A stretch of 43,203 nucleotides of DNA. Source: Acetobacter tropicalis. GTDB lineage: Bacteria > Pseudomonadota > Alphaproteobacteria > Acetobacterales > Acetobacteraceae. Shown one piece after another: positions 5,274 through 17,395 of the stretch. Position 1 is the first letter of the stretch; the number at the start of each line of letters is the position of its first letter. The stretch lies in the NCBI RefSeq assembly GCF_001580915.1, contig NZ_LHZQ01000196.1, forward strand, positions 1-43,203, written 5' to 3'. A model generated the notes under the pieces. The model saw only the letters and a list, made by a program, of their open reading frames with translations. It was not told the DNA's origin and did not search any database. A program made the translations under genes and the position numbers.

Positions 5274-5297
5274 AATATTACAGACCGTACCTTTTTT

Positions 5298-5326
5298 GTA
5301 CTATTTTAGTGAACAACGTACTATTT
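5298..5326. repeat. Direct repeat GTACTATTT upstream of beta-propeller gene
   Basis: GTACTATTT occurs at 5298-5306 and again at 5318-5326, exactly 20 bases (about two helical turns) apart, 25-53 bases upstream of the start codon at 5273. A third GTAC lies at 5287-5290. Same-face spacing suggests a dimeric regulator site overlapping the promoter; the regulator is unknown. Confidence 0.45.
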
Positions 5327-15151: not shown

Positions 15152-15227
<76 letters not shown>

Positions 15228-15312: not shown

Positions 15313-15945
15313 TCAGGAAATTATGACACCCATCTCACGCAGCGCACACAGAAGCGGCAAAAGAGGCAGACCCAGAATAGCAGTGTGATCTCCCTCTATT
15401 CTCTCAAACAGATGCAACCCAGGTCCTTCAACCCTATACCCCCCGACAGAGGCCAGACACCGCTCTCCTTCCTCTTCCAGATAGGTTTGCAAAAACGCAT
15501 CAGAGAATAACCGCATGGTCAGGTGCGGTTCAGACACATGCTGCCACAGCACACGGCCATTACGGCACACCACAACTGCTGTATGCAGCGTATGTGTCTG
15601 CCCACGCAGGGACAGAAGCTGATCTTGGGCGACCTGTCTGTCCTCTGGTTTGTCATAGAGAGCTCCCCGGCAAGACAGTATCTGATCTGCCCCGATGATA
15701 AAGGCATCTGGCATATCCACCGCCAGAGCTTTTGCTTCCGCCAAACGGAGGGCCACTGTTGCAGGAGGCCATCCCTCCCGCAGCCCTGCTTCCTTCAATT
15801 CCGTTTCATCAACAGAGGAGGGTCTGATGGAAAAAGCCAATCCTGCATTGGCCAGTACTATTCGTCTGATAGCAGACATACTGGCTAGTACTAGTTCGTG
15901 GCGTTTGTCCTGTAATGGAGTCGGCTTAAGTACTAAATCTGTCAC
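15313..15945 (-). CDS. maf: Maf-family nucleotide pyrophosphatase
   Basis: A 210-residue Maf/YceF/YhdE-type protein, a house-cleaning pyrophosphatase acting on non-canonical or bulk nucleoside triphosphates. Visible motifs are LVLASMSAIRR (residues 18-28; the usual form is LASxSPRR, so the Pro is replaced), the catalytic Asp in IGADQIL (D87), DKPED and LSLRGQTHTLHTAV, then the VGGYRVEGPG segment. The start appears to be GTG 15945; no alternative lies before the conserved LVLAS motif. In alphaproteobacteria maf flanks the replication origin and hemE, as here, and its first codons contain three GTAC sites of the origin cluster. Confidence 0.9.
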   Translation of the reverse strand: MTDLVLKPTPLQDKRHELVLASMSAIRRIVLANAGLAFSIRPSSVDETELKEAGLREGWPPATVALRLAEAKALAVDMPDAFIIGADQILSCRGALYDKPEDRQVAQDQLLSLRGQTHTLHTAVVVCRNGRVLWQHVSEPHLTMRLFSDAFLQTYLEEEGERCLASVGGYRVEGPGLHLFERIEGDHTAILGLPLLPLLCALREMGVIIS

Positions 15946-16226
15946 GTGAGCGAGTCTCTTTCAGGTACTGAGCAAAAAATAGGGGTGTGAGTACTATCCT
16001 GAGTACCGGGGTACATGTGGATTGTACGGCGATCATGACAAGCCCGTACCGAGTACCGTGCACAACCTGCAAGAGTCATGAACCGGTGAGTTGTACACAG
16101 CCTCATTGGGGTATTTTCTGGATAACTCGAAAAACCCCTGTTTTTCCAAGACTCTGCAATCTGTACACACTGTGGGAAAGATGGGGTACATTTTTGGAAT
16201 GGTGGGTACCCCGTCATCCACAGTAC
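15855..16226. repeat. GTAC cluster in the origin region
   Basis: GTAC starts at 15855, 15888, 15930, 15965, 15991, 16003, 16011, 16024, 16046, 16053, 16093, 16163, 16186, 16206 and 16223. Chance predicts one or two in this length, and the 2.9 kb of uvrA has about four. Contexts fall into groups: AGTACTA four times, AGTACCG twice, GGGTACAT twice and TGTACAC twice. Several abut DnaA-box-like 9-mers (TCATCCACA directly followed by GTAC; GTACATGTGGATTGTAC). The first three sites are inside maf. Spacing is irregular, 7 to 70 bases. Confidence 0.9.
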
Positions 16227-16275
16227 CTCTTAACCCCTACAATCAATTCTATCTTCTTTTTTTATAGTTAAGAGG
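15855..16275. other. oriC: Probable chromosomal replication origin (oriC)
   Basis: The gap between divergent maf and hemE is a known origin position in alphaproteobacteria (Caulobacter Cori lies next to hemE). DnaA-box-like 9-mers, each with one mismatch to TTATCCACA or its complement, are TCTGGATAA (16117-16125) and TCATCCACA (16214-16222). Weaker ones are TGTGGATTG (16016) and TGTGGGAAA (16171). Four GANTC sites, the CcrM methylation target, lie near 15919, 15952, 16074 and 16149. A T-rich, easily melted stretch (16227-16270) borders hemE. Fifteen GTAC tetramers fall between 15855 and 16226. parAB and two parS sites lie 11-15 kb away. There is no perfect DnaA box. Confidence 0.75.
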
Positions 16276-16315
16276 GCGTGGACAGGCTGGAAAAAGACGT
16301 GCAGGACTTCTGAGC

Positions 16316-17395
16316 ATGAGCAGCAAGACAGAAATCCCCCCCTCCAAGCGCCTTCTCAGAACCCTGAATGGTGAGGCCATGTGGCCACCACCGCTTTGGA
16401 TGATGAGACAGGCAGGACGCTTTCTTCCTGAATTCAGAGCCATGCGTGCGCAGGCTGATTTTCTGACGCGATGCATGACGCCAGATATCGCCACGGAACT
16501 GACATTGCAGCCCATCCGCCGTTTTGGAATGGATGGTGCCATCCTGTTTTCCGATATTCTGATCCTGCCTTGGGCATTGGGTCAGTCTTTAGAGTTTGTT
16601 GAAGGAAAAGGCCCTGTTCTGGGCGCTATCCGCAGCGAACAGGATTTTGCCAGACTGGACCGTAACCGCATTGCGGAGATTACCGCACCTGTTCTAGAAA
16701 CATTAAGCCGCCTGCGCAAAGTTCTTGATGGCCCGGACGATATTGGTGTGGCGAAGGGCGGAGCAACAACCCTGATGGGGTTCACTGGAGCTCCCTTTAC
16801 TGTGGCCTGTTACATGGTTGAAGGGGGTGGTTCGCGTGAATTTGCCATTACCCGGCAGATGGCGTTTGCCGAACCCGCGCTGTTTGATCGTATCATGGCT
16901 CTGCTGACAGAAACGACGGCAGATTACCTATGTGCCCAGATTGAAGCTGGGGCAGAAGCCGTCATGCTGTTTGATTCCTGGGCTGGTCTGCTTCCGCCCT
17001 CCGAATTCCGTAAGCACGTTATTGCGCCTACCCGGCAGATTGTTCAGGCTGTGAAAGCAAAACATCCTTCTGTGAAAATCATCGGTTTCCCGCGTCTGGG
17101 CGGCATGATGGTGCCGGAATATGCACGCGAAACGAGTGTAGATGTTGTGGCACTTGATACCAGTGCGGATCTGGCGCTGATGCGCGCGCAGGTGCCGGAG
17201 TCCATTGGTCTTCAGGGCAATCTGGACCCGATTGCCGTTCTGGCAGGTGGAGAGGCCATGCGACGGGAAGCGCTGGCAGTCAGAAATGCGGGTAAAGGCC
17301 GGGCTCATGTGTTCAACCTTGGTCATGGCGTGTTGCCGCAAACGCCTGTGGAACATGTTGCTGATCTGGTTAAAACAGTCAGGGAGACAGCATGA
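16316..17395 (+). CDS. hemE: Uroporphyrinogen decarboxylase
   Basis: HemE, 359 residues, decarboxylates the four acetate side chains of uroporphyrinogen III to coproporphyrinogen III in heme synthesis. It shows the N-terminal signature PPLWMMRQAGRFLPEFR (R31, R35), the catalytic Asp in LFSDIL (D80), GFTGAPFTVACYMVEGGGS, LFDSWAGLL and the C-terminal NLGHGVLPQTP loop. Length is typical. It heads the hemE-HAD-hemJ operon, and its promoter must lie within the proposed origin, as in Caulobacter. An AGGA lies about 11 bases upstream of ATG 16316. Confidence 0.98.
   Translation: MSSKTEIPPSKRLLRTLNGEAMWPPPLWMMRQAGRFLPEFRAMRAQADFLTRCMTPDIATELTLQPIRRFGMDGAILFSDILILPWALGQSLEFVEGKGPVLGAIRSEQDFARLDRNRIAEITAPVLETLSRLRKVLDGPDDIGVAKGGATTLMGFTGAPFTVACYMVEGGGSREFAITRQMAFAEPALFDRIMALLTETTADYLCAQIEAGAEAVMLFDSWAGLLPPSEFRKHVIAPTRQIVQAVKAKHPSVKIIGFPRLGGMMVPEYARETSVDVVALDTSADLALMRAQVPESIGLQGNLDPIAVLAGGEAMRREALAVRNAGKGRAHVFNLGHGVLPQTPVEHVADLVKTVRETA

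Follow-up and report, generated by a model that had tools for sequence, protein, structure and literature searches.

Fifteen copies of the palindrome GTAC lie within 372 bp (positions 15855 to 16226) of the Acetobacter tropicalis DNA analysed here, a stretch of 43,203 bp that we refer to as the window. The interval is almost certainly the chromosomal replication origin (oriC). The density of the cluster, its conservation among relatives, its coincidence with the switch of GC skew and the co-occurrence of an orphan DNA methyltransferase, MTase2, led us to favour the interpretation that the GTAC sites are methylated by MTase2 and that their methylation state controls initiation at oriC; both the methylation in vivo and its effect are what we infer from these data.

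Dense GTAC cluster between maf and hemE

The window contains 57 GTAC sites. Direct counting confirmed that 15 of them are in the 372 bp interval, with start positions 15855, 15888, 15930, 15965, 15991, 16003, 16011, 16024, 16046, 16053, 16093, 16163, 16186, 16206 and 16223. The remaining 42,831 bases contain 42 sites (0.98 per kb), which corresponds to an expectation of 0.37 per 372 bp. GTAC is the most over-represented tetranucleotide of the interval (approximately 40-fold), and the Poisson tail probability for 15 sites in 372 bp is 1.5e-19, or 6e-15 when multiplied by the window length. The source assembly is a draft genome (3.56 Mb, 222 contigs), in which the pattern GTAC-N0-30-GTAC-N0-30-GTAC occurs at 14 places of the forward strand: seven represent the cluster, and the other seven are isolated triples. 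As the densest other 372 bp stretch of the window has four sites, GTAC is not equally dense elsewhere, a finding on which the original prediction had made its proposal depend. One isolated trio lies in the window itself, at 5287 to 5321, away from the origin. The features of the region are as follows.

15313-15945, minus strand: maf (Maf-like protein, PF02545), from open reading frame and Pfam match, start codon provisional
15855-16226, no strand: GTAC cluster, 15 sites, from direct count and conservation in relatives
15991-16056, no strand: dense block of six GTACs, GAGTAC-CGGGGTACATG-TGGATTGTAC ... CCGTACCGAGTACCG, left part of the conserved core in the 23-locus alignment
16057-16065, minus strand: DnaA-box-like TTGTGCACG, one mismatch
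16091-16099, plus strand: DnaA-box-like TTGTACACA with GTAC 16093 inside, this GTAC in 23/23 aligned loci
16117-16125, minus strand: DnaA-box-like TTATCCAGA, one mismatch
16161-16169, plus strand: DnaA-box-like CTGTACACA with GTAC 16163 inside, this GTAC in 23/23 aligned loci
16184-16222, plus strand: conserved segment GGGTACATTTTTGGAATGGTGGGTACCCCGTCATCCACA with two invariant GTACs and DnaA-box-like TCATCCACA at 16214-16222
16220-16280, no strand: A+T-rich stretch (65-70% in 40-base windows), by its composition a candidate unwinding element
16316-17395, plus strand: hemE, uroporphyrinogen decarboxylase (PF01208), from open reading frame and Pfam match

The cluster had been placed between maf and hemE and extending into both genes. 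The intergenic position and the overlap with maf, whose 5′ end carries the first two or three GTACs, were borne out; hemE, which starts at 16316, contains none of the sites. A minus-strand tRNA-Ala (GGC) gene occupies 15152 to 15227, separated from the 3′ end of maf by approximately 90 bp.

DnaA-box-like nonamers were scored with TTRTNCACA, which we take to be the consensus, allowing one mismatch. Five are found in the 481 bp between 15840 and 16320, compared to 46 in the 43-kb window. The predicted proximity of GTACs to such boxes holds: the sites at 16093 and 16163 are inside TTGTACACA and CTGTACACA, respectively, and the site at 16223 directly abuts TCATCCACA. The same 481 bp contain one GATC and four GANTC sites. 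TTAA-N7-TTAA, the CtrA site, was sought in this segment and was not found.

Conservation of the cluster in Acetobacteraceae

hemE was searched in 150 genomes of the family representing 102 genera (145 had the gene), and the upstream regions of 90 genomes (30 loci of the first search and 60 further ones) were examined with a threshold of at least seven GTACs per 400 bp. The cluster is kept between maf and hemE in related genera, as anticipated: 33 of the 90 genomes have it within 400 bp upstream of hemE, and three more have a moved cluster. In other families the maximum was three GTACs per 400 bp upstream of hemE (28 genomes with loci, of 70 with hemE).

Of the first 30 loci 23 were aligned, leaving out four that had no cluster at hemE and three near-duplicates. 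Ten GTAC sites are common to at least half of the aligned loci (12 to 23 of 23), four of them to all 23, and in most cluster loci the spacing between GTACs is almost constant. Column conservation is 0.92 for the GTACs, 0.74 for their flanks and 0.62 for the other columns of the core. The bases flanking the conserved sites are diverse (A.T, G.A, T.A, C.C, G.C and others). Beyond the ten shared sites, the 7,998 masked bases contain 63 GTACs, as opposed to 29 GATC, 29 TCGA and 28 CATG. Since the flanks vary and the 63 extra copies occupy less-shared positions, the unit under selection looks like the word GTAC, retained and added, rather than a longer site.

The core pattern GGGGTACRTTTT-N8-12-GGGTACCCC was scanned over one genome per species (84,980 species) and matched 109 stretches. 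The 80 listed of these 109 were all from Acetobacteraceae, one match each, and included Acetobacter, Gluconobacter, Komagataeibacter, Gluconacetobacter, Novacetimonas, Asaia, Bombella, Acidomonas, Tanticharoenia, Brytella and Parasaccharibacter. The best 400 bp of the 109 core loci had a median of 13 GTACs (range 4-16; in the lowest locus, L241, the match lies approximately 40 bases from the end of its stretch). The pattern was derived from acetic acid bacteria, so the scan demonstrates its specificity and not the absence of other forms of the cluster.

The cluster very probably marks the replication origin

The assignment of the interval as the probable replication origin was substantiated by the change in sign of GC skew that coincides with the cluster in relatives, including three genomes in which the cluster is away from hemE. 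These three, G118 and G032 (Bombella-type) and G101, have a cluster with the same core elements at a distance of 24-26 kb (G032/G118) or 19.5 kb (G101) from hemE. Skew was computed in 5-kb windows. In G118 it is -0.09 in the 882-887 kb window and +0.11 in the next one (887-892 kb), with the cluster at 887.2-887.4 and hemE at 912 kb. The switch of G032 falls between the 55-60 and 60-65 kb windows (cluster at 59.5-59.7, hemE at 85.6 kb). For G101 the switch is in the 40-45 kb window, which also contains the cluster (42.2-42.4 kb), with hemE at 61.9 kb; here the later 60-65 kb window is negative again. In G126, of which 20 kb in each 100 kb were sampled, cumulative skew reaches its minimum in the 1.6-Mb window, and the cluster is at 1.65 Mb. 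In the loci concerned (L309 of G118, L320 of G032 and L316 of G101) the maf-hemE pair was left behind, 20-26 kb from the origin. In all three the skew switch is at the moved cluster and not at hemE, so the cluster belongs functionally to the origin and not to the promoters of maf and hemE; a role as a part of these promoters was rejected.

MTase2 as the candidate modifying enzyme

The original prediction had named a DNA methyltransferase as one of two possible users of the sites, and the family-wide distribution of an orphan enzyme, together with a phage relative linked to RsaI, argues for this option, with the function deduced rather than observed. The genome encodes two PF01555 proteins, an orthologue of CcrM and MTase2. 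MTase2, an N6_N4-class methyltransferase of 282 aa, is encoded outside the window, on contig G000:C175. Its TSPPYN motif is invariant in 12 sequences; TSPPY is presumably a methyltransferase signature. In the loci read, MTase2 is accompanied by genes for Tim44-like, MltA and Smr proteins and by an open reading frame similar to c-type-cytochrome peroxidases, and no restriction gene was recognisable within 1.5 kb on either side. MTase2 is thus an orphan methyltransferase, without a cognate restriction enzyme within 1.5 kb on each side.

MTase2 was found in 71 of the 150 family genomes. Across the class (337 genomes), matches at E 1e-50 were restricted to four members of the family. More distant relatives are encoded by plasmids and phages: the best (52% identity) is in Paracoccus alcaliphilus, a truncated one is in P. 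pantotrophus, and those of phages have 43-49% identity. Four genomes of the outgroup have their MTase2 gene less than 10 kb from hemE and hence close to the presumed origin (the L360 region of G109, G010:C147, G143:C1 and G064:C155).

The predicted structure of MTase2 has a mean pLDDT of 68, with low values in the middle region. Cytosine-N4 methyltransferases lead its profile matches in the PDB, followed by adenine enzymes, and the best NCBIfam match is an adenine enzyme, far below the cut-off. In Synechococcus phage Syn19 the MTase2 relative (43%) overlaps a gene labelled R.RsaI endonuclease. This is the depositor's label, the same gene of phage Syn2 is annotated as 'hypothetical', and it has neither a Pfam nor a PADLOC match. 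RsaI cuts GTAC. Identity between MTase2 and the Syn19 protein is 37% over residues 24-123, 48% without gaps over 124-215 and 47% over 216-275, whereas identity to CcrM in the same regions is 30%, 18% (with 25 gaps) and 40%. Residues 124-215 are the presumed recognition region. These sequence relationships point indirectly to GTAC as the word that MTase2 probably modifies. M.RsaI methylates GTAC to yield m4C (PMC6256690), and PMC4357717 describes M.PabI and M.CviQI as forming m6A in GTAC. The modified position is probably N4 of the cytosine, with m6A possible too in view of M.PabI and M.CviQI.

Profiling of rival enzymes covered CcrM and D12. The CcrM orthologue, which matches NF050803 over the full length (E 1.4e-190, under the Caulobacter-tuned cut-off), was rejected as it is also present in genomes without clusters. 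The D12 enzyme was rejected as it is missing from nine of 14 cluster genomes (this genome and eight of 13 others).

MTase2 and the cluster occur together

In the 90 genomes MTase2 and cluster were found together in 36, MTase2 without cluster in 17, cluster without MTase2 in none and neither in 37 (Fisher p = 2e-12). Of the 53 genomes with MTase2, 17 stay below seven GTACs; MTase2 thus does not require the cluster. Moved clusters were counted in G118, G032 and G101 only; the whole-genome search for triples, evaluated among the matches listed, covered seven of the 37 that lack MTase2 and 13 that have MTase2 but no cluster (G020 and 12 of the 17).

In a tree of hemE from 53 genomes, the acetic acid bacteria form the part that is marked by the cluster. 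Within this part the three genomes without MTase2 (G066, G029 and G116) are the three without cluster. A single clade for them was not rejected (AU p 0.43), and the co-loss amounts to one or two evolutionary events; an independent-pairs test had three pairs, too few to reach significance. In the outgroup, mean GTAC number is 2.3 with MTase2 (n=17) and 0.7 without (n=34; p 9e-5, ignoring kinship), and 16 of 17 genomes with MTase2 have a GTACC lying 50-180 bp ahead of hemE, compared to 12 of 34 without (p 6e-5, also ignoring kinship). Outside the origins, Markov-corrected GTAC frequency did not tell genomes that have MTase2 from those that lack it; avoidance of GTAC throughout the genome was therefore rejected as a sign of the enzyme.

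Origins lacking the enzyme

The skew switch lies directly upstream of hemE in G029 and G116 and also, though weak, in G066. The origin regions of G029, G116 and G066 have one, zero and zero GTACs and two, four and 14 TTATNCACA boxes, respectively. The 14 boxes of G066 (locus L056) are perfect copies of TTATCCACA on both strands, within approximately 270 bp at about -491 to -223 from hemE. Cluster origins contain any TTATNCACA in two of 36 cases and on average 1.6 copies of TTGTACACA. Canonical boxes are also few in outgroup origins (0.4-0.6), therefore the contrast in boxes is mainly a feature of the genomes that lost MTase2. An excess of GANTC or GATC as a substitute for GTAC was sought in G066, G029 and G116 and was not found.

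The mean number of GANTC sites per best 400 bp is 4.2 in cluster genomes and 4.0 in genomes without MTase2. Five outgroup genomes, all without MTase2, have 9-13 GANTC per 400 bp upstream of hemE (expected approximately 1.2): L105 (G003), L096 (G102), L061 (G036), L084 (G121) and L059 (G059). Within the same family, these are origin clusters built on another methylation word, that of CcrM. G043 (L045), also without MTase2, has nine GATCs in the best 400 bp of its origin-like region, with GATC where others have GTAC.

Possible role of GTAC methylation

We propose that methylation by MTase2 regulates initiation, a reading that we consider about twice as probable as not. Both strands of the GTACs would carry the mark except in S phase, when passage of the replication fork would leave them hemimethylated. 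The methylation state could tune the binding of DnaA or of an as yet hypothetical reader of hemimethylated sites; this is suggested by the two conserved GTACs inside TTGTACACA and CTGTACACA and by others that abut boxes. The fresh copy of the origin would be barred from refiring until MTase2 restores the mark. A SeqA-like reader was absent from all seven genomes searched, with a positive E. coli control. A more far-reaching version, which we regard as tentative and rather doubtful, is that GTAC N4-cytosine methylation is the main initiation clock in acetic acid bacteria, that GTAC-bearing DnaA boxes replaced TTATNCACA, that the reader is other than SeqA, and that bacteria which lost MTase2 rebuilt their origins with canonical boxes, such as the 14 perfect ones of G066.

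GTAC could instead be the core site of an origin protein that is indifferent to methylation, or of a DnaA with altered preference, MTase2 being merely co-inherited. The two GTACs inside DnaA-like boxes would fit such a protein, as would the scarcity of TTATNCACA in cluster origins compared to the 14, 4 and 2 copies in the three cluster-less relatives, and so would a co-loss that amounts to one or two events. However, the flanks vary and only a four-base palindrome is common to the sites, which is short for a binding protein and usual for a methyltransferase; moreover, the MTase2 association recurs in the outgroup and the phage relative of MTase2 is linked to RsaI. We therefore consider this explanation unlikely, though the most serious competitor among those weighed here.

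Even if MTase2 does methylate the origin GTACs, the purpose might be strand discrimination or repair close to the origin, segregation, or transcription of maf and hemE. Methylation clusters can influence promoters, and some of the GTACs reach into maf, but in G118, G032 and G101 the cluster is found at the skew switch and no longer beside maf and hemE, and the GTACs adjoin DnaA-like boxes; a purpose of this kind seems improbable. Least credible of all is that the GTACs are passively carried along in a strongly conserved origin sequence or result from chance or local composition. The whole core is indeed conserved, including the flanks, but passive conservation would not account for the 63 further GTACs at positions without wide sharing, the 40-fold enrichment over the window, or the ceiling of three sites in the 28 genomes of other families.

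The regulation of initiation by MTase2 methylation, if it operates, would be a candidate methylation switch with a different word and enzyme and without SeqA, in cultivable and harmless bacteria of industrial interest (vinegar, cellulose, bee symbionts). The relatives without MTase2 and GTAC sites are a natural control, by which replication timing by an orphan methyltransferase becomes directly testable. The GTAC cluster also pinpoints the origin in acetic acid bacteria, even away from hemE.

Comparison with known systems

In E. coli, palindromic GATC sites are crowded at oriC, where the solitary methyltransferase Dam and the sequestration protein SeqA act on them. To our knowledge, this is the sole system in which control of initiation by methylation is understood in detail. 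The A. tropicalis origin appears analogous in having a four-base palindrome packed at oriC and a solitary methyltransferase, but the word is GTAC, only one GATC occurs between 15840 and 16320, and MTase2 belongs to the N6_N4 class. The original prediction was right in assuming the Dam/SeqA system to be lacking: SeqA was found in none of seven genomes and a Dam-type D12 methyltransferase is missing from this one.

MTase2 resembles CcrM of Alphaproteobacteria as an orphan enzyme of the N6_N4 class, and a CcrM orthologue is encoded by the same genome. CcrM, however, is also present in cluster-less relatives, and GANTC, whose methylation yields m6A (PMC6256690), is not the clustered word. With M.RsaI of Rhodobacter blasticus 28/5 MTase2 shares, by the published description, the presumed motif and base, whereas M.RsaI is part of a restriction-modification system (PMC6256690). 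The N6_N4-class fold with TSPPY and the N4-cytosine relatives likewise connect MTase2 to RsaI-type enzymes.

Searches of the open-access literature listed no paper on methylated GTAC, or on clustering of this word, in acetic acid bacteria, and the accessible parts of PMC4686929 and PMC5390034 contain nothing on GTAC. The kind of system is already known as orphan-methyltransferase origin clusters; its motif, enzyme and clade were not found in that literature. According to Blow et al. 2016 (PMC4752239), motif clusters at origins are conserved between species and correlate with orphan methyltransferases, the cases named in the figure legend being GATC in Gammaproteobacteria, TTAA in Arthrobacter, CTCGAG in Nocardia and CTAG in Haloarchaea, where the main text has m4CATG. 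The present cluster agrees with theirs in enrichment at the origin, orthologous conservation, correlation with MTase2 and lack of a restriction partner within 1.5 kb. It differs in the word GTAC, in the family Acetobacteraceae, in its position beside maf and hemE and not dnaA, and in the occurrence of the word within DnaA-like boxes; their motifs were derived from methylomes, whereas here the link between motif and enzyme is deduced. In Burkholderia, as described in PMC7364216, methylation of CACAG and GTWWAC by orphan enzymes was measured inside or beside the DnaA boxes of the origins. Motifs and enzymes are different there and methylation is presumed here, but the two cases are alike in combining an orphan enzyme with motifs inside or beside origin DnaA boxes.
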